Source: a virus. Taken from it: a DNA stretch of 34,199 nucleotides. Under the pieces are notes generated by a model. That model had not been told where the DNA came from and did no database searches. It saw only the letters and a list, made by a program, of their open reading frames with translations. Both the position numbers and the translations under genes were made by a program. Below are positions 13,088 to 32,687 of this stretch, piece by piece. The DNA lies in IMG/VR virus record IMGVR_UViG_3300027758_000019, positions 1 to 34,199 of that record. One strand, given 5' to 3'. Position 1 is the first letter of the stretch, and each line of letters begins with the position of its first letter.

Positions 13088-13110
13088 GTCACGCCATGGC
13101 ATGTGCCTAC
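13088..13110 (-). repeat. GTAG-ended palindrome (REP-like), copy 2
   Basis: On the minus strand it reads GTAG followed by an imperfect palindrome centred on GCCATGGC. The stop codon (TAG) of the gene at 13107-13535 lies inside the element's GTAG, so the repeat supplies the stop. Confidence 0.65.
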
Positions 13111-13535
13111 AACATCTTTTTACAATCAAACTCAAGCATTGTAATCATCCAGCCCTGGTAACGGTGCCAATGTTGCCAACCTCTAAAAATGAGTTTCGTG
13201 GTTAAATTTTCATCGTTGCTTTTCGGAATGTGCTGATCTAAAATATCAAGAGCTTGCAGTGCAAATGCTTCGTGTTCCTCGACCTCGGCATCGGTTATGC
13301 CTTCGCCTGTTGTTACAATGTTTTGGGTGTAGGCATGCACACGAATTTTAAGATTACTCCGACGCTTCATTTTACTAATATCGTCGAATTGTAAAGGCTC
13401 GGGAAATTCTACGAAAAAACCCATTCGAAATGCCCAACCCGTTTGTTCGTATTGTACGTTGTACCATTGGCAATCTTCACTTGCTGAAATGACATTTAAT
13501 TGCCCTTTAATGTCCTTATAAATTTCGTTTAACAT
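13107..13535 (-). CDS. Hypothetical head-tail connector or tail-terminator-like protein
   Basis: 142 residues from ATG 13535 (MLNEIYKDI). A reading from 13571 starts inside the palindrome at 13552 and is rejected. The sequence contains WYNVQYEQTGWAFRMGFFVEFPEPLQF and IRVHAYTQNIV, a beta-rich layout. Being last after gpF and gpG, it sits where Mu-like phages place head completion or tail terminator proteins; the role is inferred from position only. Confidence 0.65.
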   Translation of the reverse strand: MLNEIYKDIKGQLNVISASEDCQWYNVQYEQTGWAFRMGFFVEFPEPLQFDDISKMKRRSNLKIRVHAYTQNIVTTGEGITDAEVEEHEAFALQALDILDQHIPKSNDENLTTKLIFRGWQHWHRYQGWMITMLEFDCKKML

Positions 13536-13551
13536 GATAATGCAAATTATT

Positions 13552-13579
13552 GTAAGGACATGCCATGGCATGTCCCTAC
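13552..13579 (-). repeat. GTAG-ended palindrome (REP-like), copy 3
   Basis: The core GGACATGCCATGGCATGTCC (13556-13575) is a perfect 20-bp palindrome. Flanks extend it to 28 bp with one mismatched pair. On the minus strand it starts with GTAG. It lies between the gpG stop and the next ATG. Confidence 0.75.
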
Positions 13580-13582
13580 GGG

Positions 13583-14047
13583 TTATTTAAAAATGTCGTC
13601 AGCTAGTTTGTCTAGCTTGTTTTCTATTCGTTGGTCGAGAGCCTTGCTGGGTCCTATCATTTGGCGTTGTGGCATTTTAAAGCCCGGAGGTCGCCCGGCT
13701 TTTAATCCCTCGTTATGAACAGCCGCATAAGGCAATGAACTTGTAAACGCTACCTGAGTGTTTGAGCTTGTGGTTTCGTTATCCCACGAGCGGCGAAGTT
13801 TACCCGACTTTATCAGCAGCGCGTTTTGTTTGCCCCTGTTTTTGCCTTTGGTGTATTTACCCAGTGTGGATCTCTTTCGGCTTTTCCATTTTTTGCGCCT
13901 CCCTGGTGCCGACTCAAAACCTTTGTTTTTAAAATTATCATGAATAAAATCAAGTCCCTCAACTTTGGCAATGCCGGGAAGTCTGCGCACCATTTGCGGC
14001 AGTCGGCTTTGTATTTGTCTTAGTTTTCGTTGGAAAGCATTATTCAT
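13583..14047 (-). CDS. Mu gpG-like virion morphogenesis protein
   Basis: 154 residues, basic. The family layout is visible: an N-terminal helix, a central WKSRKRSTLGKYTKGK, LLIKSGKLRRSW, VAFTSSLPYAAVHNEG, then MPQRQMIGPSKALDQRI. The SG.L...YA..HN.G...MP.R pattern marks the phage virion morphogenesis (gpG / tail completion) family. It follows gpF as in Mu and is separated from it by a GTAG palindrome. Confidence 0.88.
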   Translation of the reverse strand: MNNAFQRKLRQIQSRLPQMVRRLPGIAKVEGLDFIHDNFKNKGFESAPGRRKKWKSRKRSTLGKYTKGKNRGKQNALLIKSGKLRRSWDNETTSSNTQVAFTSSLPYAAVHNEGLKAGRPPGFKMPQRQMIGPSKALDQRIENKLDKLADDIFK

Positions 14048-14067
14048 GATTAATTGGTTTTGATAAA

Positions 14068-14090
14068 GTCACACCATGGCGTGACCCTAC
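14068..14090 (-). repeat. GTAG-ended palindrome (REP-like), copy 4
   Basis: GTCAC and GTGAC flank a CCATGG core with one mismatched pair; on the minus strand the element begins with GTAG. It starts at the stop codon of gpF and ends 20 nt before the gpG ATG at 14047. Confidence 0.65.
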
Positions 14091-14821
14091 TATTTTAAAT
14101 ATTTATCCAAATACTCGTTAGCTTGCTTCTCAATTTTTTTCGACTCTTTTTTATTCACTTTATCCTGGTAGCCATTGTCGTCGGCGAAGAGCTTTTTGTC
14201 TTTACCAGGATTAAAGTCGAAACCTTTGTCGGGTTTATCTGCCTCTGGTTCCTTGGTTGGTTCCTTATCGGTTTGCGTAACTGAGCAACGGCAGCCCCAA
14301 CCGTTTGGTGGGTAATACTTGTTCCAAAACTTGTCGCTAATTGGCAGAATTGTGCCGTCTAGTTTTGCATGCTCCGGGCGTGTTTTGCTATCGCCAACCG
14401 CTCGGTATTCCAAGTTTGGATAAATGTCGGCATTTGCGGCAAAGCCTTCCCATTTTACAGCCATTTGCGAACTAGCCACCGCCTGATCGTATTCGGTTTT
14501 TAACCAAGTCTTGTTATACTTTTCGGTAATTGGTTGTGCTGCCTTTTTAAACTCGTTCCAACTTCGAGGCTTTCCATCGTCATCTGTTAATAAATTGCGT
14601 AAAGCTTCCTGTTCATCGTGGTTTTTAAAGGCTGCAAAACTCGCTGCATTTGCTCTTAATTCGTCGGCAAGGGCTGCGTATTGGTAATCGGTTGTAAACT
14701 CAAGCCCTGCCTCTTCAATCGATTTTACCAAGCTTTCGAAATTTAGCAACCACATGTCGTAGTCTACGGTCACAAGATCTTGTGACCCAACAAAGAATCT
14801 TTTTAACCAAGCTTCTAGCAA
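14090..14821 (-). CDS. Mu gpF-like minor head protein
   Basis: 243 residues from a TTG at 14821. The head-morphogenesis signature is strong: YRAVGDSKTRPEHAKLDG (about 139-156), then KFWNKYYPPNGWGCRCSV (about 164-181). The protein is shorter than typical gpF (about 400), lacks an ATG near its start, and its frame stays open upstream to the A11 run at 14867-14877. It lies in the -1 frame relative to the portal gene, so part or all may be made as a portal-gpF fusion. Role: minor capsid protein needed for head assembly. Confidence 0.88.
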   Translation of the reverse strand: MLEAWLKRFFVGSQDLVTVDYDMWLLNFESLVKSIEEAGLEFTTDYQYAALADELRANAASFAAFKNHDEQEALRNLLTDDDGKPRSWNEFKKAAQPITEKYNKTWLKTEYDQAVASSQMAVKWEGFAANADIYPNLEYRAVGDSKTRPEHAKLDGTILPISDKFWNKYYPPNGWGCRCSVTQTDKEPTKEPEADKPDKGFDFNPGKDKKLFADDNGYQDKVNKKESKKIEKQANEYLDKYLK

Positions 14822-14835
14822 ATTACTTTCTGCTT

Positions 14836-15981
14836 TTATCCTTGCCAGGGAAACCGACTCACCGAGTTTTTTTTTTTACCATCCTCGTCCGGATCATCAA
14901 CAACAGCATCCTCTTTTTCCTTTGCTGTTTTTGGGTCAAGTTCCGGGAATCGGAATTTTGCATTATCAGGAATTTGATAACCGTGATAACGTAGGAATGG
15001 AAACAATCTAAAATTGATAATGTTACAAATACGACGCAATCTGCTAGCATGGAAATCATCCAGTATGTTCTCGTGAACCTCGGCAGATCCTACATAGGCT
15101 TTTTCGTCGGCAGTACCTGTTTGCCCGTTAATCAACTTAGATATTTCCTTATTGCACAGTTCAACATTATCCTTGTAAATAAGGTGCCCACTGCCTGCGC
15201 TTGAATCTTCCAAGGTGTCAACTTCGTCATCCTTATCAACAATCATGTAACCATTTCGTGCAAAATTAGCTGCTGCCTTTTCTTTTTTATCCAATTCGAT
15301 ATCATCGTCAGAATCGGTTTTGCAAATCACTCGTGGCATTCCCCATTTTTCAGAATGTTCAGCCCAATCGCCACGCGCAAAGGCTTTAAAAATGACTTCA
15401 CGACTAATTGACTCCAACAAGCCCAAATCATCGGTTTCACCTATTTCAAAAAGGAAAAGAGCGGCAGGATTATCACCAATTGGAATACCTGAGGTGTCGG
15501 TACTTTCAACAATAATATTGCGATTGAACGGGTAAATATTGGTGCGTGGAAATACTTTGCAGCTAAGAAAATCGCCATGCTCATCTTGTTGCCCAAATTC
15601 AACAACGGTATACCCCCACATATCGGCATCAAAACAAATTTTAATCCACTCGGCAAACCATGGCTTCAAAAATAGGTTGGTAAGATCCTCGTTTTCCTTT
15701 TTGTCTACTTCAACAACAAAAGGCGCAGCCTGTAATTTATTAACTGCAGTTTGCGATTGTGCAATCACCTGGGAATCGGTAACCGAATTCTTGTATATTA
15801 AATACAATTTTTCCCACGATGGATTACTGGTATCCTCAGCCTCGTCTAAAGCTTCGCGAAGCGTTCCCATTTGCATAATAACACGATCGGGTTGCGGCTT
15901 GTTTACATCCGCACTCATTCGTTTGCTTTTTTTTGCAGGCTTATCTGCCGACTTGTTTAATAATCTATTTAATAATCCCAT
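14836..15981 (-). CDS. Mu gp29-like portal protein (DUF935)
   Basis: 381 residues. Family marks: ARGDWAEHSEKWGMPRVICKTD, then GYMIVDKDDEVDTLED, KDNVELCNKEISKLINGQTGT and FHASRLRRICNIINFRLFPFL. The portal forms the dodecameric DNA-entry ring at one capsid vertex. The 3' end holds an A11 run (plus-strand 14867-14877) within GKKKN, 9 residues before the stop. Shorter than Mu gp29 (512). The gene order TerS-TerL-DUF1320-portal-gpF-gpG is close to that of Mu. Confidence 0.9.
   Translation of the reverse strand: MGLLNRLLNKSADKPAKKSKRMSADVNKPQPDRVIMQMGTLREALDEAEDTSNPSWEKLYLIYKNSVTDSQVIAQSQTAVNKLQAAPFVVEVDKKENEDLTNLFLKPWFAEWIKICFDADMWGYTVVEFGQQDEHGDFLSCKVFPRTNIYPFNRNIIVESTDTSGIPIGDNPAALFLFEIGETDDLGLLESISREVIFKAFARGDWAEHSEKWGMPRVICKTDSDDDIELDKKEKAAANFARNGYMIVDKDDEVDTLEDSSAGSGHLIYKDNVELCNKEISKLINGQTGTADEKAYVGSAEVHENILDDFHASRLRRICNIINFRLFPFLRYHGYQIPDNAKFRFPELDPKTAKEKEDAVVDDPDEDGKKKNSVSRFPWQG
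14867..14877 (-). other. A11 slippery run at portal-gpF junction
   Basis: Eleven T residues on the plus strand give A11 in the mRNA, read as AAA AAA AAA AA in the portal frame. A -1 ribosomal shift, or polymerase slippage adding one A, leads into an open frame that continues through 15 residues (LGESVSLARIKAESN) into the gpF frame. The unshifted frame ends after nine codons. Confidence 0.5.
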
Positions 15982-15993
15982 GCTTAACCAATT

Positions 15994-16413
15994 TTAAAAT
16001 ATCTTATTATCGCGTGGAGCATCGCCACCCCATCTGAATTTACTTTTACTCGCACCATCACTTCCGGTTAAAAGCGTAAGTGTTGAGAACGTTTTACCTG
16101 CAGCTATGCTGCGAATGTCTTTTATCTCTTTTTTATAATTGGAATCGACACGCTCTGGTATTTCATCGTCGATAACCGTATTGTACAGGTAATAAATGGT
16201 GATTGAAACCATCATACGAACCATTTCTGTGCTGCGCTGAGTTCCGACTTTCTTCAACTCACCATCGATATCAAAACGACCTCGCAAACTGGCAAGCTCA
16301 CTAATAGCTAATTGTTCCGATTCATTTAAATTTTCGTCATCAACGCCTCGCAATTTGGCAAGTACTGCGTTTGCTATTCCACCTTTAAAATCTGTATCTG
16401 TTAAAAAAATCAT
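15994..16413 (-). CDS. DUF1320 (Mu gp36-like) head-tail connector protein
   Basis: 139 residues. FLTDTDFKGGIANAVLAKL at the start, ESEQLAISELASLRGRFD, then ITIYYLYNTVIDDEIPERVDSNYKKEIKDIRSIAAGK follow the DUF1320 pattern (helical bundle, RYD-like turn, P..v...Y). Members are connector proteins in Mu-like phages. Here the gene lies between TerL and portal rather than after the capsid genes. Confidence 0.8.
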   Translation of the reverse strand: MIFLTDTDFKGGIANAVLAKLRGVDDENLNESEQLAISELASLRGRFDIDGELKKVGTQRSTEMVRMMVSITIYYLYNTVIDDEIPERVDSNYKKEIKDIRSIAAGKTFSTLTLLTGSDGASKSKFRWGGDAPRDNKIF

Positions 16414-16439
16414 ACTATTGAATTATGAGTTTGTATAAA

Positions 16440-18017
16440 TTACCATGCTGATCGGGAGGCATTCCTAACGGCTTTACCCGTTCGGGTTGTTTTTCCGCTA
16501 CTCTTGCCTTTGCCCTTAAACCTGTCCATCTTAAAAATGCCACCTTCAACACTATCGGGACCATCGTCGTGTTCAGCATCGGGAAATCCTAAAAATTGAT
16601 TTCTCAATTCTTGCATATCAATGCTTTGCTTCAAAGCCTGATTAAATCTAATGTAACCCTGTTCGGTTAAGGCTGTAAGGTCTTCGATTCGTGCCGTTTT
16701 TTCGGGCTTTTTTCGCCTGTCCGGTCTAATCCTTAAAGTAATGCCTCGTTCCTCGCCCAATCGCCAGTACTCTTCCAGCATTAGGTCTTGAATAAAATTG
16801 GCTTCCATATAGTGGCGACATACACGATTGGCGGGAATTTTATCACCAATATTGTAATGACCTCTTGCCATTTCGGGCGTTGAACATTGGCGGCAAAACA
16901 CATCAATAATATCGTAGTATCGACCAATTTTACCGAGCAACACAATGCTCTTAAAATCGGATTTTTTAGAGCCTTTGTAAGATGGATCGTTATAAGTAAC
17001 CAACTTTTCGTAAGCTGAAATTGGTTGAACTTTAACCCATGGCAAATGCTCCTCGCGAAAGATTTTACCAACCACAATGTGCTCATGAAAGAATTCACGC
17101 AATCCAATTCGGTAACCCTGGCGATTCATCTTTTTAATAATCTGCTCACGGCTGTATCTTTCCTTCCAAGCTGGCACACCCTTTTCAGATAAATCCTTTT
17201 TGCGTGTTTTTGGGTTTTCGAGCGCAAATACTTTAGAATGATACAAGTCTTTTCGCTTAGGATCGTCGGGCTCGATATCGCCTACCACTTTAGCCACCAC
17301 ACTCTTTTTATTGATACGGTTACCCAAACCAATTAATCGGGAGCCTGTATTTGGCATGGCTCCATAAAAGTCACCTAAAATCCAATCGAGAGTTTCGTCA
17401 ACACGCACCTCGTTTTTAACCAAGCCAGCATCGTCGATATCATCGAATACTCCATAGTTAGGTCGCTTTTCTGCATTCCTGGTACCACGTGGCGATTGAC
17501 CGCGACCAAATGCCCAAAAACCAACTCCATCGGCAGTAATGAAATAACCATCTTGCCAATTTCCAAGGGAGAACTGCTCGCCAAAATCGTTAATGTATCG
17601 TTTGTTGTACACCAATTCGGCTTGAACATCTCCCAATAAGATTTTTGCTTTCTTTTCGTTAGCACTGGCAAGCATCATTCCCAATAGCTCACCATTTGCC
17701 TTTAAAAACAATGGTAAAATAACGTCATAAATTACCGACTTTGCGTGTTCACGCGGATACTCCAACATTGCAAAAATGTCGGGATTATCGATAATTTTTT
17801 TGGTGTCACGTTTGTGGAAATAAGCAAAATCGGAGTCGATAAAATGACCAAAATAGTATTGAGCAAATTTCACAAAGTTGCTTTGTAATTTTGCAACACG
17901 CTTTTTCTTTTGGCTCTCAGTTTCCTTATCTAAAGGAGTGGCACGCTGAATGCTTTCTTTCTCCCTCTGCCATGCCTCAAATTCTTTGCGGGCTTTCACG
18001 TTCCAGTCTGCTGCCAT
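16440..18017 (-). CDS. Terminase large subunit (Mu gp28-like)
   Basis: 525 residues. The ATPase half has a degenerate Walker A (PREHAKS, 88-94) and Walker B GVFDDIDD (about 189-196). The RNase H-like nuclease half has TYNDPSYKGSKKSDF (Asp344 as first acid) and a C-terminal DDGPDSVEGG Asp. It packages DNA into proheads and, in Mu-like phages, cuts host flank DNA during headful packaging. A basic Gly/Ser-rich tail ends the protein. It starts 2 nt after the TerS stop. Confidence 0.93.
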   Translation of the reverse strand: MAADWNVKARKEFEAWQREKESIQRATPLDKETESQKKKRVAKLQSNFVKFAQYYFGHFIDSDFAYFHKRDTKKIIDNPDIFAMLEYPREHAKSVIYDVILPLFLKANGELLGMMLASANEKKAKILLGDVQAELVYNKRYINDFGEQFSLGNWQDGYFITADGVGFWAFGRGQSPRGTRNAEKRPNYGVFDDIDDAGLVKNEVRVDETLDWILGDFYGAMPNTGSRLIGLGNRINKKSVVAKVVGDIEPDDPKRKDLYHSKVFALENPKTRKKDLSEKGVPAWKERYSREQIIKKMNRQGYRIGLREFFHEHIVVGKIFREEHLPWVKVQPISAYEKLVTYNDPSYKGSKKSDFKSIVLLGKIGRYYDIIDVFCRQCSTPEMARGHYNIGDKIPANRVCRHYMEANFIQDLMLEEYWRLGEERGITLRIRPDRRKKPEKTARIEDLTALTEQGYIRFNQALKQSIDMQELRNQFLGFPDAEHDDGPDSVEGGIFKMDRFKGKGKSSGKTTRTGKAVRNASRSAW

Positions 18018-18019
18018 AG

Positions 18020-18496
18020 TTAAAGAGATTTGCGTTTTTCATTCAAATACTTATCGATAGGTTCAATAATATTTTGAGCCAACACAAGGTTCTCCTCTTT
18101 CAACCATACCGAAAACTCACGAAGAATTCGAACAATTGCCGACCAATCGAGCTCCTTTCCTTTTACAGTTGTAAATAGTTTTTGAACGGCGTCGATTTCG
18201 CCTTTTGGAATCAATAGCTTTCCAAGCTCCTCGGTGCTTAATTCAGGGCTTAGTTGTTCGGTAAGTTTTTCCGATATCATTCGGATAACAGTAGTTTGGT
18301 GAGCCAATGCTGAGAGTGCATTTTCTTCGGAAGTTTGGCGTTTTATAGAATGATCTAAGCGTTTTTTACGCAGACCGCCTTGAGTAACATATTTAGAAAT
18401 TGTCGCCTCGCTAAGCTTTAAAATCTTTGCTATATCCTTTTGCTCATATCCCTCCTTAAATAAGAGTTCAGCAGCTGCCTTTTTGTTTAGTTCCAT
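18020..18496 (-). CDS. Terminase small subunit-like protein (HTH)
   Basis: 158 residues. An N-terminal helix-turn-helix (KEGYEQKDIAKILKLSEATISKYV, about 14-37) is followed by a helical region with KKLFTTVKGK-like packing. Small terminases bind the pac site and regulate TerL. Position immediately before TerL and the HTH support the call. It is the first gene of the leftward late operon. Confidence 0.8.
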   Translation of the reverse strand: MELNKKAAAELLFKEGYEQKDIAKILKLSEATISKYVTQGGLRKKRLDHSIKRQTSEENALSALAHQTTVIRMISEKLTEQLSPELSTEELGKLLIPKGEIDAVQKLFTTVKGKELDWSAIVRILREFSVWLKEENLVLAQNIIEPIDKYLNEKRKSL

Positions 18497-18672: not shown

Positions 18673-19752
18673 ATGGAGCTGAAATTTTCGAAAATAGTAA
18701 ACAAAGAACAGAAACGAGCTGAGATTTTACTTTCAGGAATCCTGGGCGATGGTGAAAAGCAAACCAATGGTCATTGGTGGGCTCAGGAATTTCGTTGGCT
18801 CGACAAGAACTACGACGAGATTGATGTATTAATTAATTCCGATGGTGGTAGTATTGTGCATGGTTTAAGCGTTGTTTCTGCTATTCTGGGTGCAACAGCA
18901 AAAGTCACTACTCGCACGGTAGGTATTGCCGCAAGTATGGCTGCGGTTGTAGCAATTCAGGGCGATAGGGTTGAAATTAATGACTATGCAAAGTTGATGT
19001 TTCACTCTCCATATTACGAAGATGAAAATGGCGATAAGGTTAAGCAATTATCGGCGAAAGCTAAAAAAGGTCTTCAAATGCTTAAAGATACCCTTACCAA
19101 ATTGTTGATGAAACGCGGAAAATCGGAGGAAGATATCAACAAAATTCTACGATCTGATACATGGTATACTGCTGAGGAAGCAAAAGCCGACGACTTTGTT
19201 GATGAAGTTATCCAAACAGGAAGAAAAGAGTTAGCAGCATTGGAGCCAATGGCACTAGTGGCAAAACTCAACGATGAATATAAACCAAAAAAAGCACGCA
19301 AAATGAAATTAGTTATTGCAGCGTTGGGCTTGCCGGAAGAAAGCGAAGAGCAAGTCGTACTTGAGGCGGTTAACAAGTTGAAAAATGATGGTGGTCAAGC
19401 TCCTGATTTGAGTAAGGTTGTTGATCGTGTAATTGTTGTGGCAAAAGCTCACGGCAAAGTGACGGACAAAAACGAGAAGATCGTGAGAGAATTGGCTAAG
19501 AACAATTTCTCTTTATTTATGGACTTCTTGAACCTTGAAGAAAACACTGGCGCGCCAGCTGGTGGCGACACTACTCGTATTTCGGAAGTAATTGCCGAAT
19601 TGAACAAAGGCAAAGGTGGCGGTGGAAAAGGTGAGGAAAAGACTTTCGCCTGGTACGAAAAAAACGATCCTGATGCTTTGGCAACAATGGAGGTTAGCGA
19701 TCCTGAAAAGTTTAAAAAGCTTGAGGATGCAGATAACGCTCTGTATAAGTAA
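18673..19752 (+). CDS. Mu I-like prohead protease with C-terminal scaffold
   Basis: 359 residues. Residues 1-190 form a ClpP/S49-like domain: INSDGGSIVHGL, nucleophile Ser88 in GIAASMAAV, His111 in LMFHSPYY, and DTWYTAEEAKADDFVDEV. The rest (about 210-359) is scaffold-like: MKLVIAALGLPEESEEQVVL, then Gly-rich and acidic. An in-frame ATG at 19303 (Met211) begins this part, so a separate scaffold could be made internally, as Mu Z is within I. First gene of the rightward late operon. Protease and scaffold shape the prohead and are then removed. Confidence 0.88.
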   Translation: MELKFSKIVNKEQKRAEILLSGILGDGEKQTNGHWWAQEFRWLDKNYDEIDVLINSDGGSIVHGLSVVSAILGATAKVTTRTVGIAASMAAVVAIQGDRVEINDYAKLMFHSPYYEDENGDKVKQLSAKAKKGLQMLKDTLTKLLMKRGKSEEDINKILRSDTWYTAEEAKADDFVDEVIQTGRKELAALEPMALVAKLNDEYKPKKARKMKLVIAALGLPEESEEQVVLEAVNKLKNDGGQAPDLSKVVDRVIVVAKAHGKVTDKNEKIVRELAKNNFSLFMDFLNLEENTGAPAGGDTTRISEVIAELNKGKGGGGKGEEKTFAWYEKNDPDALATMEVSDPEKFKKLEDADNALYK

Positions 19753-19788
19753 TCCCTATTCTGTTAATTCTTAAAAAATCCCATAGTA

Positions 19789-20133
19789 ATGGAAGAACAA
19801 ATTGTAAGATATCCGTTTGGCGATGCATCGCAGCTTAGCCTAACAGCATCCGGCTCGCAAGAGTTGGAGATTGTTAACTCGGTTACTGTTGTTGACGGTG
19901 CATCAGTAGAAGCAAGCGCAAGCCGTACCATCAATTTAGCCATTGATGAGAGTGTGAAACTTGGTGATCGAATTCTCTTTAAGTTGAAAACTGCAGGAAC
20001 TCAGGAAACTGATTTCGGGACAGGTATTCAGGCTGCAAGCATTGTAGGTGTTGCAGGTAAAACCAAAACTATCGAGTTCGTTTTTGACGGCAACGTGTTT
20101 GTTCCAACAGGCGCTCCTGCTCAGATTGACTAA
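19789..20133 (+). CDS. Probable capsid decoration protein
   Basis: 114 residues, beta-rich with many Thr/Ser/Val (SVTVVDGASVEASASRTINLAID, KTIEFVFDGNVFVPTG). Size, composition and location between protease/scaffold and major capsid protein fit a decoration protein. No specific family is recognised; call by context. Confidence 0.6.
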   Translation: MEEQIVRYPFGDASQLSLTASGSQELEIVNSVTVVDGASVEASASRTINLAIDESVKLGDRILFKLKTAGTQETDFGTGIQAASIVGVAGKTKTIEFVFDGNVFVPTGAPAQID

Positions 20134-20159
20134 CCCTAACCCTTTAAAATTTGTAGAAA

Positions 20160-21101
20160 ATGCCACAAATAAATCCTATTAAGTACTCGAAAGAGTTACA
20201 AAAAGTAATTTTCCCTGATAATTCTTTTTACAAGAGATCGATCGCGGAAACAGGTGTAGCAGATAATGTTACATCGGTAGAGAGACCTATTCAAGGCTCT
20301 ATTGGAAAAGCAAAGAAAGGCGCTCCAAAAACGCTGCCTTTGCCAGTTAAAACCGCATTGGATAGCTCCGATAGCTATGCTGTTGATTTGGTTTATGCTG
20401 ACCCATTGGTGATTAACAATCCAACTGATTTTGCATTGAATTACAACAAGCGAGCTACCAAGCAAGCACAGCAAGCTTCGGTTATTGAAACCAAGTGTGC
20501 TGATATTGCTGCTGTGGGTTGGGCACCAAGTGTAGAGGCTCAAATCATCAAGTCAACAGGTGAACCTCGTGCAACTAATGTTATAGGTTTGGCAGGGGAT
20601 CGTAAAGCGCTAACACTGAAAGATATGCTTAAGGTAAAAAACGCCTTAATGCGAATGAATGTAGATGGCTTAGGTGGTAAATTGTGTATGTTGGCAACAC
20701 CTGATGCTTACACTGATTTGTTGGGAATCGACAAATTTGTTGATTACAACTTAACGGGTAATACTTCTAAGTTGGAGAAAGGTATTATTGGTCACCTTTT
20801 AGGTATCGATATCTACTACCGAAGCACCGATGAAGGTCATATTGGTCTGTTATACACCAATGACGCTACTCCTGTTAAAAAGGATACCGAAGCAAAAATA
20901 GCTTCAACAGATCGTCCTGGTAACTTGTTCTGGAATGACAAAATGGTTGGACGTGCAGAAGGAAAATTAAAAGCGATTGTGAACGAAAATGCACCTGGTT
21001 ATATGGGTGGTACCATTTTGGAAGCACAAGTTCGTTTTGGAGCTTCACATGGTCGCGAAGATCAAAAAGGTGTTATTGCCTTAGTTGAAGATAACGCATA
21101 A
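20160..21101 (+). CDS. Major capsid protein (Mu gpT-like position)
   Basis: 313 residues. NSFYKRSIAETGVADNVTSVERPIQGS at the start, a DYNLTGNTSKLEKGIIGHLLGIDIYYRS segment and a C-terminal GTILEAQVRFGASHGREDQKGVI strand fit an HK97-fold capsid protein. It is flanked by protease, decoration protein and a terminator, as is usual. No N-terminal delta domain is obvious, which agrees with a separate scaffold in the protease gene. Confidence 0.85.
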   Translation: MPQINPIKYSKELQKVIFPDNSFYKRSIAETGVADNVTSVERPIQGSIGKAKKGAPKTLPLPVKTALDSSDSYAVDLVYADPLVINNPTDFALNYNKRATKQAQQASVIETKCADIAAVGWAPSVEAQIIKSTGEPRATNVIGLAGDRKALTLKDMLKVKNALMRMNVDGLGGKLCMLATPDAYTDLLGIDKFVDYNLTGNTSKLEKGIIGHLLGIDIYYRSTDEGHIGLLYTNDATPVKKDTEAKIASTDRPGNLFWNDKMVGRAEGKLKAIVNENAPGYMGGTILEAQVRFGASHGREDQKGVIALVEDNA

Positions 21102-21127
21102 AACGCAAAACCTTTAGAGTTGTGATA

Positions 21128-21170
21128 GGCTGCCCCGTATTTCTCCCTTAGAAAGCGAGGCAGCCATTTT
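21128..21170 (+). terminator. Terminator after major capsid gene
   Basis: GGCTGCC (21128-21134) pairs with GGCAGCC (21159-21165), with two more CG pairs past one mismatch. A short TTTT follows at 21167-21170. The loop is large and the T-run short, so it may be a partial terminator that sets the high capsid expression apart from lysis and tail genes. Confidence 0.55.
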
Positions 21171-21199
21171 CCAAAACCATCCCCAAAAATAGCTTGCAA

Positions 21200-21730
21200 A
21201 TGTCAAGAGACCTTAACCAATTGCACCCGGTAACAATGCAAAAAGCCTTACAGGTTATTAACCAATGTAAAGCCAATGGCGTTGATATTTTAGTTTACAA
21301 CACCCTTAGAACTTTGGAAGAGCAAGCCAAGTTTTACCGTCAAGGTAGATCGTGGAGTGTGATAAAAGTGAAGTGTATTAACCTTAGAAATGCTGGTTAC
21401 GGATACTTGGCTGATGTTATTGAGAGAGTTGGTCCACAAAAAGGCACAAAAAAATTAACCAATGCGGCACCAGGAGAAAGCTGGCACAATTTGGCTTATG
21501 CATTCGATGCGGTTCCGCTAATAGGAAAAGACCCGGCTTGGAGTTACAAAGGTAACGAGAGGCTATGGGATGTTTATGGGAATGCTTGCAAATGGTTCGG
21601 CTTAACCTGGGGCGGCGATTGGAATTTTAAAGATTACCCACACGCTCAGGAGCACAGCGAAACCAATCCTTTAAATGTGTATGGTCCCGAAGCTTTGCAC
21701 AAGCTTTTAGAAGAAAGGGGACTATTATGA
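21200..21730 (+). CDS. Peptidoglycan endopeptidase, M15 family (endolysin)
   Basis: 176 residues from ATG 21200; an upstream TTG at 21194 is less likely. VYNTLRTLEEQAKFYRQG, SWHNLAYAFDAVP and DYPHAQEH carry the M15 zinc ligands (His, Asp, His) in the order typical of L-Ala-D-Glu endopeptidases. It cleaves host peptidoglycan at lysis. No signal peptide, so it needs a holin. It overlaps the next gene by ATGA and leads a lysis cassette. Confidence 0.88.
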   Translation: MSRDLNQLHPVTMQKALQVINQCKANGVDILVYNTLRTLEEQAKFYRQGRSWSVIKVKCINLRNAGYGYLADVIERVGPQKGTKKLTNAAPGESWHNLAYAFDAVPLIGKDPAWSYKGNERLWDVYGNACKWFGLTWGGDWNFKDYPHAQEHSETNPLNVYGPEALHKLLEERGLL

Positions 21731-21972
21731 AACCCGATATTGATTGGTGGACGATAGCTTACATTTCGGGTGCTGGTGTTATTATTTGGTGGGGCTTTCG
21801 CCGATTAATTAAAAGGTTCGATTCATTAATTGAAGCTGTAAAGAAAATGGATAAAACAATGGTTTTATCGAACTACAGAATTAAGAGCCTTGAAGACAAT
21901 CAAAGAATACACAACCGCCGAATTAACAAGCTAACCGACAGAGTTACCAAATTGGAATTAAATAAGAAATAA
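21727..21972 (+). CDS. Small membrane protein with coiled coil (lysis cassette)
   Basis: 81 residues: one membrane helix at about 7-25 (WTIAYISGAGVIIWWGF), then a basic coiled coil (about 28-80) with regular hydrophobic spacing (RIKSLEDNQRIHNRRINKLTDRV). The form resembles phage accessory lysis proteins or i-spanin-like proteins. It is coupled by ATGA to the endopeptidase. Confidence 0.65.
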   Translation: MKPDIDWWTIAYISGAGVIIWWGFRRLIKRFDSLIEAVKKMDKTMVLSNYRIKSLEDNQRIHNRRINKLTDRVTKLELNKK

Positions 21973-21986
21973 ATACCCTTTAAAGC

Positions 21987-22373
21987 ATGTTTAAATTTCT
22001 GAAAAAGATAGACCCACAAAAGGCATTCGATACTGTTGCAAGCGGAATCGATAAGGCTTTTTATACTAAAGAAGAGCAATCGGACGATGCAAAAGCAGCT
22101 TGGGCTGGTTGGTTCGAATGGTATAAAAACACCTTGGACGAGTCGAGTATCAGAAGTATTACCAGGCGAATTCTTGCCGTGATGTTTTCAAGTGTATTTC
22201 TAGTGCTTTTTATTGCCGCAGCTGTGTTCTATAAGTTCGATAAAGAATACGCTTTATTCTTGTTTGAATTGGCTAAGGAACTCGGGGTTTATGTAGGGGG
22301 AATCATGCTCTTTTATTTTGGATACTACGGAATTAAAAACATAGTACAAACCAGTAAAAAACAAAAAAAATGA
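21987..22373 (+). CDS. Holin-like protein
   Basis: 128 residues. A cytoplasmic N-terminal part (DDAKAAWAGWFEWYKNTLDESSIRSITRR) precedes two or three membrane helices (about 63-82 and 93-115). The S.RS.TRR segment before the helices and length match the 3TM phage holin type. Location beside the endopeptidase supports it. It overlaps the next gene by 4 nt (ATGA). Confidence 0.7.
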   Translation: MFKFLKKIDPQKAFDTVASGIDKAFYTKEEQSDDAKAAWAGWFEWYKNTLDESSIRSITRRILAVMFSSVFLVLFIAAAVFYKFDKEYALFLFELAKELGVYVGGIMLFYFGYYGIKNIVQTSKKQKK

Positions 22374-22774
22374 AAAAATTCATCTGCTTTTTAATGCTTT
22401 TCATGGTGGCATTTATAACACCCATGATGACCATGGCTGAGACTGTGGCAAATGCAGCTGTTGAAACTTCAACGAGTATCGACATTGGCTCTTATTTTAC
22501 AAGCTTAACCGGGCTCGTTTCTTTGGTAATTTTGGTTACCCAATTTTTAAAGAAATTGATAAAAACCGAGGGCTTAAAAACTCAAATTTTATCGTGGATA
22601 GTTTCTGTTGTGCTAGCGGTGGTCGGGTATTTCCTACAGCTTGGAATTTTTATCGACTTAGCCTGGTACTGGATTTTAATTTATGCGGTGTCAGCCGGAC
22701 TTATTGCAAATGGTATAGCCACCAAGCAAGTAGTCGAGGCTATACTCAGTTTGTTTAAACCTAAACTTCAATAA
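22370..22774 (+). CDS. Membrane protein of the lysis cassette
   Basis: 134 residues. A signal-like N-terminus (MKKFICFLMLFMVAFITPMMTMAE) is followed by three hydrophobic segments (about 44-61, 73-91, 97-115). It could be a second holin or an antiholin. It ends 2 nt before the tail tube gene. Confidence 0.65.
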   Translation: MKKFICFLMLFMVAFITPMMTMAETVANAAVETSTSIDIGSYFTSLTGLVSLVILVTQFLKKLIKTEGLKTQILSWIVSVVLAVVGYFLQLGIFIDLAWYWILIYAVSAGLIANGIATKQVVEAILSLFKPKLQ

Positions 22775-22776
22775 GT

Positions 22777-23208
22777 ATGGCAAATACTGGAATTATTGAT
22801 GGTGGGGATATCATTCTATCTGTTGAGCAATCAACACCGGGAACTTTTTTAGCAATTGGTCATTCAACCAGTTGCAAGATATCCACCTCCACTTCGTTTA
22901 GAGAACGGAGAACGAAAGATACCAACGGCAAGGAGCGTGCCCCCGATGAGACGGATACGCAAATTTCTGTTGAATCTCTAACCTTATACGACGGTTATTC
23001 TTATTTCGACCTGAAAGAGAAGCAACTTGCAAAGGAGCAAGTGAATTTGAAGTATTCACCAAAAGCTGAAGAGGCTGGCGATAAGTATGAAGAAGGAATT
23101 TTCTTTATTGAATCGTTGGAAAGAAATGATGCTGTTGCTGAAGACTCTTCAATGAGTGTCACTTTCTCACAAAAAGAAACGCCGGAAATTAAAACAGTTT
23201 CTGCTTAA
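22777..23208 (+). CDS. Major tail (tube) protein
   Basis: 143 residues. GDIILSVEQSTPGTFLAIGHSTSCKIS followed by ERRTKDTNGKERAPDETDTQISVESL and FFIESLERNDAVAEDSSMSVTFSQK is the usual layout of siphovirus tube proteins (TP901-1 type). It precedes the chaperone pair and tape measure, and is separated from them by a strong terminator, fitting high expression. Confidence 0.82.
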   Translation: MANTGIIDGGDIILSVEQSTPGTFLAIGHSTSCKISTSTSFRERRTKDTNGKERAPDETDTQISVESLTLYDGYSYFDLKEKQLAKEQVNLKYSPKAEEAGDKYEEGIFFIESLERNDAVAEDSSMSVTFSQKETPEIKTVSA

Positions 23209-23225
23209 AATCTAATAAATAATCG

Positions 23226-23256
23226 AAAAGGCAGGCTGCACTGCCTGCCTTTTTTT
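23226..23256 (+). terminator. Terminator after tail tube gene
   Basis: AAAAGGCAGGC and GCCTGCCTTTT form perfect 11-bp arms around a 6-nt loop, with seven T residues at 23250-23256. It should lower transcription of the chaperone and tape measure relative to the tube protein. Confidence 0.9.
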
Positions 23257-23272
23257 AAACAACTTGAATATT

Positions 23273-23587
23273 ATGGAATCACAACCTAAAACAACAATAG
23301 AATACAATGGTGAAACTTATCCGTTTTACCGAACCAATCGCGGAATGTTCAATTTTGAAAATTCCGGATACTCAATTGAAGATATCACAAAGGGGAAACA
23401 GTCGGCTATGCTGGCTCAAATTTATCACCAACTAAAGGACTGTGCAAAACGTGCAGATATGGAATTTAAAGCATCGTTCGCTCAATTTATTGACAATTCT
23501 GAACCCGATGTTTTTGAGGTGTTTTCAAGACTCAAGCAAGAGGCAGATAAGCTAAAAAAGGCAAAGGGGAACCCGGCAGAGAACTAA
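23273..23587 (+). CDS. Tail assembly chaperone, G-like
   Basis: 104 residues from ATG 23273; the upstream TTG at 23264 is less likely. TTIEYNGETYPFYRTNRGMFNFENSGYSIEDITKG resembles siphophage tail chaperones. Near the end lies the A AAA AAG heptamer (23554-23560) in the correct phase for a -1 shift. The short form ends at 23587; the shifted form continues into the next gene. Confidence 0.82.
   Translation: MESQPKTTIEYNGETYPFYRTNRGMFNFENSGYSIEDITKGKQSAMLAQIYHQLKDCAKRADMEFKASFAQFIDNSEPDVFEVFSRLKQEADKLKKAKGNPAEN
23554..23560 (+). other. -1 ribosomal frameshift site A AAA AAG
   Basis: The zero frame reads CTA AAA AAG, matching the canonical X XXY YYZ heptamer used in E. coli dnaX. After a -1 slip the next codon starts at 23560 (GGC), and the frame stays open through 23602 to 23934. 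The fused product would be about 220 residues (96 + 124). Confidence 0.85.
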
Positions 23588-23934
23588 GCCTAACCGAAAC
23601 AATGGGCATTGCAATTGGGCAAATGGGGTTAGACTTGGAGACATACCTAAGCCTAACCCCATTTGAGTTTCAAGAGGTTTATAAATCCTTTACCGAAAAA
23701 ACGGTATCGGACAGAGAGTGGGAAGAAATAAAAGATATGCGGGTAGCAAGGTGGCAGGTGTTCAGAACGCTTTGTCCGCCCCAACAAAAAAAAGTAAGTG
23801 TTTATGATCTTGTTGAATTGCCAGGCGACAAGGAAATAAAAGAAAGAATTAAAGCTAAAGAGCAAGCACAAACACAAGGGAGTACTCCTGAGCGATATGA
23901 GGAATTAAAAGAAAAGTGGAACGATGAGCGATAA
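23560..23934 (+). CDS. Tail assembly chaperone T-like extension (via -1 frameshift)
   Basis: The frame enters from the slippery site at 23554-23560 and encodes GKGEPGRELSLTETMGIAIG, then a domain with LETYLSLTPFEFQEVYKSF and a charged C-terminal helix. An internal ATG at 23602 could serve as an independent start but has no clear ribosome site. This is the G/GT arrangement of lambda-like tails: both forms assist tape-measure folding and tail tube assembly. It overlaps the tape measure gene by 11 nt. Confidence 0.82.
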   Translation, partial: GKGEPGRELSLTETMGIAIGQMGLDLETYLSLTPFEFQEVYKSFTEKTVSDREWEEIKDMRVARWQVFRTLCPPQQKKVSVYDLVELPGDKEIKERIKAKEQAQTQGSTPERYEELKEKWNDER

Positions 23935-26095
23935 GGTTTACAAGTACGTACTCGATTTTAAAGCTAAAACCGACAAGTTTTCTAAAGACGTTGGAGGTAT
24001 AAAGGGAATGCTAAAAGGCGCGGCTGTTGCAGCTGCCGCCATGTTTGCTGTGGATAAAATAATGGATGCAGCTGCTGCTGTTGCCGACTATGCAAAAGAG
24101 ATATCGGGTGTTCGTTCCGAAATTCAAAAGTTAAGCGGCTTACAAGATGCAGCTTTAGATCAGGCTACGGGTCAAGCTCAAGCACTTGCAAAGGGTTATC
24201 AAGTTGATATTACCGAAGCTATTCAAGCCAGCAATGCGATGATGAATACTTTCGGTGCTACTTCGGGTGATGCTTTTGATGTTTTGAACAAAGGTTTTGC
24301 TACAACTGCCAATAGTAACGGCGATTTTTTAAAGCAGGTAAAAGAATATTCAACCCATTTCGATGAAGCTGGACTTAGCGCTTCAGAAATGGTTGCCATA
24401 ATTGCCGAGGGCAATAAAATGGGGGTTTTCGATGATAAAACAGCCGATTCGATTAAAGAGGGTTCGATCCGCCTAAGGGAAATGACTAAAAGTACTAAGG
24501 ATGCTCTCGCTGGTATTGGTTTAAGTTCTACTCAAATTCAAAAAGATATTTCAACGGGTGCAAAAAGCATGTTCGATGTAATGCAAGATGTTAGTAAGCA
24601 GCTCAAAACATTACCGGAACAAAGCCCGGCTGTGGGTGCTGCTCTTGCTGATATTTTTGGTGGTCCTGGTGAAGATGGTATACAATTCATTCGAACTCTT
24701 GGCGACATCAATACCAATTTAGATACTGTTGTTTCGAAAGCTGGTGAAGCCTCGGCAGCACAAATTGCTTGGACTGAAGAAATGGCAGAATTTCATACCG
24801 TAGGTGCTCAGGTGTTTGGTGGTACTGGTGAAATGATTACCAAGGTGAAAACGGTTTTCATGAGTTGGATAAATGATGGCATTAAGGGGCTCGTTGATAT
24901 TACCAATTACTTTATCGATTTGTATAACGAATCAATGGTGTTTCGTGGTGCAGTTGAATACATAAAACTAGCATTTAATCAACTTTGGGAAGGCATAAAA
25001 GTGCCATTTAAATTGATATGGAATAATTTGAAAGCCATTGGAGGTGCAATTAAGGGCATTTTTACGTTTGATGTTGGAGCAATTAAAGAAGCATTTAGTA
25101 AAGGTCTTGACGGTGCGGTTGATATCGTTAAGGATTATGGAAAAAACAGCGCAGAAAACTTCATGGAGGCGTATAAGAATACGTTAACTCCTACAGAAAA
25201 AATAAAATTAATATCGCTAAGCGATGATGCAGCCGAGGCTGCCGGGGTGCAAACAGGTAAGAAATTTGCTAAGGGGATTGCTAAAGGTGTTGATGCAGGT
25301 AAAACTCCTGAGAAAATGAGTTTTAATCCGTACTTAGGAGGCGATGAAGAAATAGACGATGATTTATTTGATACTTCGACCGCAGAAGGTAGAGCAAATA
25401 CATATAGTGCGGCATTGGGTAATTTAGACAAGCAATTGCAAAAATCATCAGAGTGGAATAAGGTTTTTGGGAATAGTTTTCAGGCTACTAATGATGAAAT
25501 AGAACTTACCAAGCAGGCAATTGAATCTCTTATTGAAGATGGTTTTAAAGTTTCTGATCCTGCAATTCAAAAATTAAAGGAAGATTTAGAAGAGCTTAAT
25601 TCTGTTCAATACAAATTAACGGGAGGAGTTTTAGCATTTGCAAATAGTTTAGAAGCAATGTCAGAACAGGGGGCTGAATCATTTCAGGAAATGGGGGTGG
25701 CTATAGCTAATACTGTTAGAGATATTATCAAAGCTTTAATTGCGCAAGGTGTTGCTGGTGCTGTTTCAAACGCATTAAAAGATGCTCCATGGCCTATAGG
25801 TTTAATTGCTGCTCCATTAGCAGCAACAGCAGCCACTACTCTTTTTAATAGTGTTATTCCAGCCTTCGCCACTGGGGGAGTGATTTCAGGTCCTACTGTC
25901 GGTTTAGTTGGTGAGTATCCAAATGCGGTGAATAATCCTGAGTGGATAGGTAAGCGCTCCGACATGTTGGGCGATATGAAAACTGCAGTTTCCGAAACTG
26001 GAGGCGGCGGTGGTAACTTCTCATTCAGATTTGAAGATGGTGCCCTGGTTGCTTATCTGGAACACCAAAACAGAAAAGTGGGAGGATTTGCATAA
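23924..26095 (+). CDS. Tail tape measure protein
   Basis: 723 residues. An Ala-rich hydrophobic stretch near the start (GAAVAAAAMFAVDKIMDAAAAVADY, split by charged residues), the TMP/TP901 core (YQVDITEAIQASNAMMNTFGATSG... IAEGNKMGVFDDKTADSIKEG), membrane-like helices in the middle (about 330-385), and a C-terminal hydrophobic Ala/Pro-rich part with GGVISGPTVGLVGEYPNAVN. It sets tail length; 723 residues predicts a fairly short tail (about 100 nm by the usual 1.5 Angstrom per residue rule). Confidence 0.9.
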   Translation: MSDKVYKYVLDFKAKTDKFSKDVGGIKGMLKGAAVAAAAMFAVDKIMDAAAAVADYAKEISGVRSEIQKLSGLQDAALDQATGQAQALAKGYQVDITEAIQASNAMMNTFGATSGDAFDVLNKGFATTANSNGDFLKQVKEYSTHFDEAGLSASEMVAIIAEGNKMGVFDDKTADSIKEGSIRLREMTKSTKDALAGIGLSSTQIQKDISTGAKSMFDVMQDVSKQLKTLPEQSPAVGAALADIFGGPGEDGIQFIRTLGDINTNLDTVVSKAGEASAAQIAWTEEMAEFHTVGAQVFGGTGEMITKVKTVFMSWINDGIKGLVDITNYFIDLYNESMVFRGAVEYIKLAFNQLWEGIKVPFKLIWNNLKAIGGAIKGIFTFDVGAIKEAFSKGLDGAVDIVKDYGKNSAENFMEAYKNTLTPTEKIKLISLSDDAAEAAGVQTGKKFAKGIAKGVDAGKTPEKMSFNPYLGGDEEIDDDLFDTSTAEGRANTYSAALGNLDKQLQKSSEWNKVFGNSFQATNDEIELTKQAIESLIEDGFKVSDPAIQKLKEDLEELNSVQYKLTGGVLAFANSLEAMSEQGAESFQEMGVAIANTVRDIIKALIAQGVAGAVSNALKDAPWPIGLIAAPLAATAATTLFNSVIPAFATGGVISGPTVGLVGEYPNAVNNPEWIGKRSDMLGDMKTAVSETGGGGGNFSFRFEDGALVAYLEHQNRKVGGFA

Positions 26096-28134
26096 TGGCT
26101 ACACACAGATTGCGCTTTAATGGTGAATGGCAAGATAAAAATGGTGGCATGTCGCGTTTCGAAATTTACGAGCGCGATTTTGTTGGTGCCCACGAGGAAA
26201 TGGAAATGAGAGAAGATCCTCTTACTTTGGAACGTGCTACTCTTAGCAACAAGTTTCAACCCTCAATTGGTTCGGGTGTTGAGCTACGAGTAACCGCAGC
26301 CTACGACGGACAATACGCACATTTATACACCAAGGATAAGCAAAAGTTTAAAGCACTATTTTATAAAAATGATCAGTTGATTTGGTCGGGCTATTTAAAT
26401 AGTGAAGTATACAGCGAGCAATTTGACAGGAATAAAGATTACCCGGTAACCCTTCAATTTAACGATGGCTTTGCAGTTATGGAACGCATCCCTTTTAAGG
26501 ATGAAAATGGCAATGCTTACACCGACTTGAAAACAGCATGGGAAATTATATGGATTATCCTGGATAAACTTGATATCAATTTTCAATATGTGTATTTGGG
26601 ATTGGATACTTTCGAGGATAGCATGAACACGCTTACAAGTCCTTTTCATCAAATGAAATTGGATTGCAACAACTACTACGACGAGCAAGGCGAAGCTCTT
26701 AATTGTCGTGAAGTTCTTGACGCGATAGTTCGCACCCAGCGAGCTATTTGTTTTCAGAATGAAAGCTGCTTTAATATCGTTAGTGTGCCACTGCTTACTG
26801 ACAGTTATGAGCGTAGAAGATACACGAGCGAGGCATCGGCACAGGTGTTGCAAACGGTTAATCCTGTTCTTACCATTCCTACACAAGCCGATTGGTACGC
26901 AAGCGATCAGAATATCGATACCGTTGGAGGATACAGCCGTGCTACTTTAAAGTATTCGCCTTATGCCCCGGAGCAAGTTATTGAAAGTTCTGATTTTGAT
27001 GATGCAGATACTTGGGAAGGTGAGCACGAATGGGATGATGTTGGTGACTTTTTTGAACTGAAAGGTGTAACCGGAGTTAAAGGCTGGAAGTTTTTAAACG
27101 GTGCATCCTTTTCGGGCACAAAAGAAGAGGAAGTGGAGGAAAACGAAGTGTATTTTAAATTGCCATTTGAGAATGTATCGGGCGAAGTTGTGCTAATTGA
27201 AAATGACGAAACAGGACCATTGGTGACAGGAGTTGCCCAGCAAGGTTTTAAAGTGAGTTTTGATATTTATGCAGCTACAAAAAACAATGAATTCGACACC
27301 GACGAGGAGTCGAAAAAGGTTTTTGATATCCGTGGGTATTTTAATATCGAAATTGATGGCAAACGCCCCGATGGTTTTTCGGCTGATCCGTGGACTTGGT
27401 CGGTTAATTCGAGTCTTGAATATTTTAAGACCTCCAAAACTTCGAACATTGCCGATAGTTGGCAAACGGTTGAAGTGATGATACCAGGGAATTGCCCTCA
27501 TGGTAGAATAAAGCTACAGATACTAAAACAATTTGTTGCTTATAAGGATAACAACCGAACACCTGTTGATAGTGGTGCTATTGATAATATTCGAATTCGA
27601 AACATAGAAATTGAAGCGGTTGATATTACTCGCTATGTATCGCAAAGTGGTCGTAAATCGTTCAATTTTGTTGCTGCTGATTATTCTGACATTGAAATAG
27701 TGGCAGAAATTGATGACGATTGGATAAACGAGGCAGAAACTGTTGAAATGATACATGGCGACAGTAAGGAAAACAATTGTACCGATAAAGGAGGAATTCA
27801 TCTGCTTGATAACAGCTTTACAAGTTCGTGGCGAGTTTTGGGTGATACCGAAAGCCACGAAATTACAACACTTATACTTCGGGCTTTTGAAAGTAATTAT
27901 CGCGACAGCCTTAAAAAACTAATGGGCACACTCGAATCCCCGAATTTCTTTAATGGCAATGGTCAAAACATCGATGGAATATTAAGCTTTCATTCGGTGC
28001 TGATTTACCCGAGTACTTCGCTTGGTAGTAAAAAACTAATGTGCATGGGCGGCACTTATAATGATAAAAGACAAACATTAAACGGCACTTGGTTAGAGGT
28101 TTTAGAGGATGACTTAACGATTAACAGCTTGTAA
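26095..28134 (+). CDS. Distal tail / tail-tip structural protein
   Basis: 679 residues, stop-start overlap of 1 nt with the tape measure gene. The N-terminus (ATHRLRFNGEWQDKNGGMSRFEIYERDF) and the early beta-rich part with AVMERIPFKDENG fit distal tail or baseplate-hub proteins. A beta-sandwich-like middle (WKFLNGASFSGTKEE to GRIKLQILKQFV, about 325-485) may be a carbohydrate-binding type domain. It probably joins the tube to the receptor-binding protein encoded next. Confidence 0.7.
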   Translation: MATHRLRFNGEWQDKNGGMSRFEIYERDFVGAHEEMEMREDPLTLERATLSNKFQPSIGSGVELRVTAAYDGQYAHLYTKDKQKFKALFYKNDQLIWSGYLNSEVYSEQFDRNKDYPVTLQFNDGFAVMERIPFKDENGNAYTDLKTAWEIIWIILDKLDINFQYVYLGLDTFEDSMNTLTSPFHQMKLDCNNYYDEQGEALNCREVLDAIVRTQRAICFQNESCFNIVSVPLLTDSYERRRYTSEASAQVLQTVNPVLTIPTQADWYASDQNIDTVGGYSRATLKYSPYAPEQVIESSDFDDADTWEGEHEWDDVGDFFELKGVTGVKGWKFLNGASFSGTKEEEVEENEVYFKLPFENVSGEVVLIENDETGPLVTGVAQQGFKVSFDIYAATKNNEFDTDEESKKVFDIRGYFNIEIDGKRPDGFSADPWTWSVNSSLEYFKTSKTSNIADSWQTVEVMIPGNCPHGRIKLQILKQFVAYKDNNRTPVDSGAIDNIRIRNIEIEAVDITRYVSQSGRKSFNFVAADYSDIEIVAEIDDDWINEAETVEMIHGDSKENNCTDKGGIHLLDNSFTSSWRVLGDTESHEITTLILRAFESNYRDSLKKLMGTLESPNFFNGNGQNIDGILSFHSVLIYPSTSLGSKKLMCMGGTYNDKRQTLNGTWLEVLEDDLTINSL

Positions 28135-28135
28135 T

Positions 28136-32182: not shown

Positions 32183-32213
32183 TCAATTATAAATTTTTTA
32201 AAAAATCAGACAC

Positions 32214-32687
32214 ATGAAAACGACTAAAGGTAAATTATTTGAATTACAAGAGGGCTTTGACCAAGTAAGCAATTTAAGAGGGGCGAAATTTGTTTATGCC
32301 GCCGCTAAGAATAAGCGCAAAGTTGATGCTGAATGTGAAGATATCAGCAAGGCAATAGCTCCTACTGAGGAGTATGTCCCGGTACAGGAAAAAGAGCGTG
32401 AGTTGGTAATGACTCATTGCTTGAAAGATGCGGAAGGAAATCCGGTACCAAATAACCAGGGAAATCTATTTGTGCCTGCAAAAAACGACAAGGCATATAA
32501 AGCGGATCGTGAGAAATTAAAGGCTGAGCACAAAGAGATTTTTGAAAAGCGCGATAAGCAAACAAAGGACTACGAGGAGCTTTTAAAGGGCGAGATTGAA
32601 ATTGAATTGCACATGATAAAAGAGGAGGATTTACCGGAAGATATTACAGCCGGGCAATTAGCTGGTATCATGGATATGGTTGAGTAG
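32214..32687 (+). CDS. Hypothetical late protein, Lys/Glu-rich
   Basis: 157 residues, highly charged with helical segments (NDKAYKADREKLKAEHKEIFEKRDKQ, about 90-115) and a hydrophobic end (AGQLAGIMDMVE). No family recognised. Position just after the tail fibre suggests a fibre assembly or structural protein. Last gene of the late operon before the structured intergenic region. Confidence 0.65.
   Translation: MKTTKGKLFELQEGFDQVSNLRGAKFVYAAAKNKRKVDAECEDISKAIAPTEEYVPVQEKERELVMTHCLKDAEGNPVPNNQGNLFVPAKNDKAYKADREKLKAEHKEIFEKRDKQTKDYEELLKGEIEIELHMIKEEDLPEDITAGQLAGIMDMVE

Follow-up and report, generated by a model that had tools for sequence, protein, structure and literature searches.

The stretch analysed here, a viral record referred to as the window, is 34,199 bases long, and the site of interest is read on its minus strand, where the gene set comprises terminase-like, gp36-like, portal, gpF and tail-completion genes. 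The portal gene (14836..15981, minus strand) has a zero-frame product of 381 aa and is of the Mu type, matching PF06074 (Portal_Mu) over residues 62-359 with an E-value of 1.1e-52 and 179.9 bits as compared to a gathering score of 23.9. The gpF frame (14090..14875, minus strand) lies at -1 relative to the portal and belongs to the MuF, or SPP1 gp7-like, family, as seen from PF04233 (E 3.1e-16; 60.6 bits against 29.6) and TIGR01641 (SPP1_gp7; 52.8 bits against a cut-off of 39.65). Terminase, portal, gpF and neck genes occupy 13107-18496 on the minus strand, and a ClpP-like prohead protease and the tail genes 18673-32687 on the plus strand. A 21-nt repeat with a CCATGG palindrome is present in three copies (13090-13110, 13559-13579 and 14070-14090), at or beside the gaps between the minus-strand late genes, and a D12-class/Dam-like adenine methyltransferase is encoded at the phage end (32803-33699, plus strand).

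Near the end of the portal gene there is a T11 on the plus strand at 14867-14877, that is, an A11 on the coding strand, and it is the only A/T run of at least nine in the entire window. The portal frame around this candidate slippage run reads GGT AAA AAA AAA AAC TCG GTG AGT CGG TTT CCC TGG CAA GGA TAA, and its C-terminal translation over the run to the stop is KKKNSVSRFPWQG. Two heptamers of the form X XXY YYZ, A AAA AAA and A AAA AAC, lie within the run in the -1 register, and the run also has the length, at least nine A/T, of transcriptional slippage sites of the Thermus thermophilus dnaX type. As the original prediction held, the gpF frame is open upstream just to the run, opening at 14875 inside it, and is closed by a TAA that takes its T from GGT and its two As from the start of the run. 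A -1 shift would give a portal-gpF fusion of 630 aa by computed translation, in agreement with the roughly 630 residues proposed, and the predicted peptide across the junction is KKKKLGESVSLAR. The bases 14836..14866 (minus strand) would then be coding in two frames, as the portal tail NSVSRFPWQG before its stop and as the fusion linker LGESVSLARIK. The gpF frame was also said to begin at a TTG (14819..14821, minus strand) and to have no ATG near its start, and neither statement held: the TTG is CTG or CTC in the relatives, and an in-frame ATG (14753..14755, minus strand; ..DYDMWLLNF), a possible internal start, is conserved in the closest of them.

These closest relatives, in Labilibaculum manganireducens (L003/L007) and in an IMG/VR contig and a genome of the same bacterial family (L005/L060), are about 80% identical to the window. 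They have A10 followed by GC at the aligned position, the same -1 offset and the same position of the portal stop, and the alignment runs without a gap across the run, with the eleventh A of the window in place of a G. The run and the frame geometry are thus held although the sequence of the run has changed. It had been cautioned that a miscount in the homopolymer would give the same picture; the locus would then in truth hold a single unbroken portal-gpF frame or else a normal pair of genes. Errors are common in long A runs, and relatives with a continuous gene exist, but the gapless alignment to the A10-G relatives strongly disfavours an error of length, an identical A11 is found in a second IMG/VR contig, and the equal -1 offset recurs in more than 60 junctions, most of them without a long homopolymer. 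We regard a sequencing or assembly error as highly improbable.

Between the portal stop and an indel before the ATG, the differences among the close relatives fall on third positions of the gpF frame in 8/12, 7/12 and 8/12 cases, in three pairs that are not independent of one another. Since they are mostly third positions, this bias fits a translated sequence that begins upstream of the ATG.

To place the junction among its relatives, portal homologues were gathered by portal similarity (a few by portal-F fusion), so that the choice of loci was not guided by the junction itself. The sources were phage records, 393 genomes of the order of Labilibaculum, 56 of its family and 395 of its phylum, and further stretches. 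Scans of the collections with the window proteins gave few loci, and the whole-genome searches were the productive ones; a plasmid collection held distant portals only and was left out of the survey. Profiles of portal and F were built and then iterated, and exact duplicates were dropped, with a few near copies left. We counted T TTT TTY, A AAT TTY and any A run of at least nine (A9-A11 were seen) with a heptamer in the -1 register as strict sites. The start of the F core used in counting start codons was taken from the trimmed profile. All E-values, z-scores and counts come from related sequences and should not be read as independent events.

The survey comprised 102 junctions: 64 split with gpF at -1, 17 continuous, 9 with other layouts (four in the same frame and five at +1) and 12 whose locus lacks F. 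Chance alone would put about a third of the split junctions at -1. A strict in-register site was present in 60 of the 64 -1 junctions and in all 17 continuous genes, but in none of the 9 others, and the portal bodies, used as a control, had only 9 strict sites in a total of 79,734 nt. Runs of at least nine As were absent from the portal bodies of the surveyed junctions; 16 junctions carry one. The T sites are typically T TTT TTC GAn TAA followed by GCCCC...GGGGC, and the gap from heptamer to stem is mostly 5-6 nt. Three of the four -1 junctions without a strict site (L092, L101 and L106) belong to a distant clade and have an ATG near the portal stop. The fourth, L088, has G GGA AAG in a candidate site, G GGA AAG GGT TAA, unlike the three common kinds. 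A slippage-made fusion had been thought unusual for a Mu-like phage; in the Bacteroidota it is the site that is usual, being carried by 77 of 81 -1-split or continuous junctions.

It is conceivable that portal and gpF are separate proteins, with translation of gpF started by the TTG or by the 14755 ATG, perhaps coupled to the termination of the portal, and that the A-run is incidental. The gpF-frame ATG is conserved in the close relatives, Bacteroidota often lack a Shine-Dalgarno sequence, and in some relatives, the Flavobacterium phages FPSV-S1 (L019) and lotta8 (L020), gpF has a free-standing ATG start of its own directly after the portal stop. Against this, the TTG is not conserved, and the coding conservation of the gpF frame reaches upstream past the ATG to the run. 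Furthermore, of the 60 site-bearing -1 junctions, 15 lack any ATG upstream of the F core, and in just two (L018 and L109) does one fall between -20 and +30 relative to the portal stop; the sites kept in the 17 continuous genes would also be left unexplained. Separate initiation therefore seems unlikely to us, and a -1 fusion through the A-run, as originally predicted, is strongly supported by the comparison. Separate genes with a good gpF start and no A-run, named beforehand as the case that would speak against a fusion, do exist in FPSV-S1, in lotta8 and in proteobacterial Mu-like phages, but not in the clade of the window itself. In four such proteobacterial phages portal and F are separate, the ATG or GTG lies at most 8 nt from the portal stop, and the strict site is absent.

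In Bacteroides hankyphage (L018, BK010646; 2811-2859), T TTT TTC with a GCCCC/GGGGC hairpin is found 49 bases ahead of the point where the portal stop ends. The annotated MuF start of this phage is an ATG at -7, at the portal stop. We considered it as the true gpF start and judged it to be incidental, as L026 and L086 have CTG there and keep both T TTT TTC and the hairpin. On this comparison, the annotated MuF start of hankyphage is probably wrong.

The proposed comparison of homologous junctions for fused genes or a conserved A-run turned up both, the run being kept as A10-G or A11 in the close relatives and the 17 continuous genes being fused. All of these continuous genes keep the site, and a -1 shift there runs into a stop after at most about 30 codons. 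The four with A AAT TTT all read AAATTTTAA, and their shifted frame stops at once. Those with T6 retain the hairpin, which codes for A-P and G-A, and the codon preceding TTT TTC ends in T whichever residue it specifies (CGT, GAT or GCT). Since the shift ends translation soon, the continuous genes would produce the portal alone by slipping, a mirror layout of the split ones. The presence of sites in both layouts suggests that two products are made either way, portal and portal-F. One relative of the continuous type, L123 (G312:C17), has its portal-F frame broken by one TAA and no strict slip site, and may be a broken gene or a case of another recoding.

In a fold test, the 50 nt 3' of each site were compared with shuffles, with windows shifted to six offsets as controls. 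The T6 and A3T3 sites had a mean fold z of about -2, and the shifted controls about 0. No significant downstream hairpin was found in the 50 nt after the A11 of the window (z -0.15), nor at any of the split A-run sites (mean z 0.46); the difference between A-run and hairpin types has p=8e-7, which is not a true probability since the sequences are related. A scan of the window from 14000 to 16000 against Rfam gave no match near the gathering score. In the relatives, T TTT TTC and A AAT TTT have the look of ordinary signals for ribosomal -1 frameshifting. The runs of the 16 A-run junctions are all 9-11 As long, with none of 7-8, and a run of nine A/T is long enough for efficient slippage of bacterial RNA polymerase in vivo (PMC5009743). 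Together with the lack of a significant hairpin at the split ones, this makes us lean towards RNA-polymerase slippage, which for the A-run type of site appears slightly likelier than a hairpin-free ribosomal -1 slippage.

At the site of the window, a ribosomal -1 frameshift on A AAA AAC or A AAA AAA, and not slippage of the RNA polymerase, is still quite possible, at somewhat less than an even chance. Canonical X XXY YYZ heptamers are in register there, the relatives with T6 or A3T3 and a hairpin are plainly of the ribosomal kind, and in the tail gene pair of the window an A AAA AAG lies in the -1 register at 23554. What weighs against it is the polymerase slip length of every run and the missing hairpins at the split A-run sites. 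The tail genes concerned lie at 23264-23700: the G frame ends in LKKAKGNPAEN before its stop, and a -1 frame opens at A AAA AAG and continues before the tape-measure gene. It is likely that they form a G/GT tail chaperone pair, and the register of the heptamer implies that the phage of the window probably uses ordinary ribosomal frameshifting as well.

In a portal tree of 90 rows, a quick tree with some long branches, the window groups with L003, L005 and L029, all of the A-run type, with a support of 99-100. Layouts and site types interchange many times over the tree, the continuous layout with 11 changes and the A-run with 6, and A-run loci adjoin continuous ones (L021/L044 and L121/L042). 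This repeated interchange implies that the two frames act as a single gene switching from one layout to another.

The A11 is very probably a programmed recoding site, from which the portal and a minority 630-aa portal-MuF fusion would be made by -1 slippage. The frames, sites, conservation, hairpins and mirror layout are read directly from the sequences; the slippage itself, its rate, the entry of the fusion into the virion and its role are inferred. The bulk of the portal would be made in the zero frame, stopping about 10 codons past the run, and slippage on the run would lead into the -1 frame and give the fusion as a minority product. As the portal domain is complete ahead of the run, either product should be taken into the dodecameric portal ring. 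The rate of slippage would then set the number of portal-borne MuF domains, presumably located in the interior of the head, the destination of SPP1 gp7, and the fusion perhaps places a few copies of MuF inside the capsid. More broadly, we find it likely that the portal of Bacteroidota Mu-like phages is a two-product recoding gene, setting the ratio of bare portal to portal-MuF in one dodecameric ring. Slip chemistry (hairpin-driven ribosomal or A-run transcriptional) and layout (extension or truncation by the shift) would have switched again and again, with the product pair preserved throughout.

If this is true, widespread Bacteroidota phages of gut, oral and marine origin, among them hankyphage and Winogradskyella phage Peternella_1, share a conserved recoding in a core head gene, and it offers a 12-fold ring a simple route to gain a sub-stoichiometric internal protein. 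With two slip mechanisms and two layouts exchanged repeatedly, the system would amount to a natural experiment on recoding. Current annotations have the genes split, MuF started at arbitrary internal codons, or one long portal, which implies that both portal and MuF are probably annotated wrongly in these phages.

No report of portal/MuF recoding was found in the literature searched; subscription papers and recoding databases lay outside its scope, and a prior listing is possible. The portal is not mentioned in the part of a 2016 recoding review available to us, and the PRFect paper names MuF only beside VIP2 toxins, as fusion genes. The PHROG family 35074, in which portal and F form one family of 890 positions, resembles the continuous portal-F proteins of related phages; its library entry notes no recoding, whereas the continuous genes described here keep the slip site.

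The major capsid frameshifts of T7/T3, Lactobacillus A2 and Listeria PSA are similar in that a phage head protein occurs in two forms, but here it is the portal, not the capsid, and the extension is a whole MuF protein. The G-GT tail chaperone of lambda and most tailed phages likewise carries its slippery heptamer late in a structural gene and yields a minority, C-terminally extended product, and in SPP1 its frameshift uses T TTT TTC (PMC6316719). The genes here are portal and MuF, and A-run sites and the mirror layout occur too. In dnaX, tau and gamma are made by ribosomal slippage in E. coli and by transcriptional slippage on a run of 9 in Thermus thermophilus; both mechanisms give the same product pair, and both layouts are known, the reversed one in some bacteria (PMC5009743). 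That is a cellular polymerase gene, and here a phage portal/MuF pair has both layouts likewise. A parallel in function is SPP1, where gp7 (MuF) binds the portal gp6 and few copies enter the procapsid (PMC6316719), and where only about 25% of the virions are infectious when gp7 is lacking (PMC6316719; PMC5576092). The likeness is that the portal recruits a few copies of a MuF-family protein to the procapsid interior, but in SPP1 the genes are separate and the binding is non-covalent. A portal-MuF fusion mixed at a low rate into the 12-mer would match the role of SPP1 gp7 covalently.
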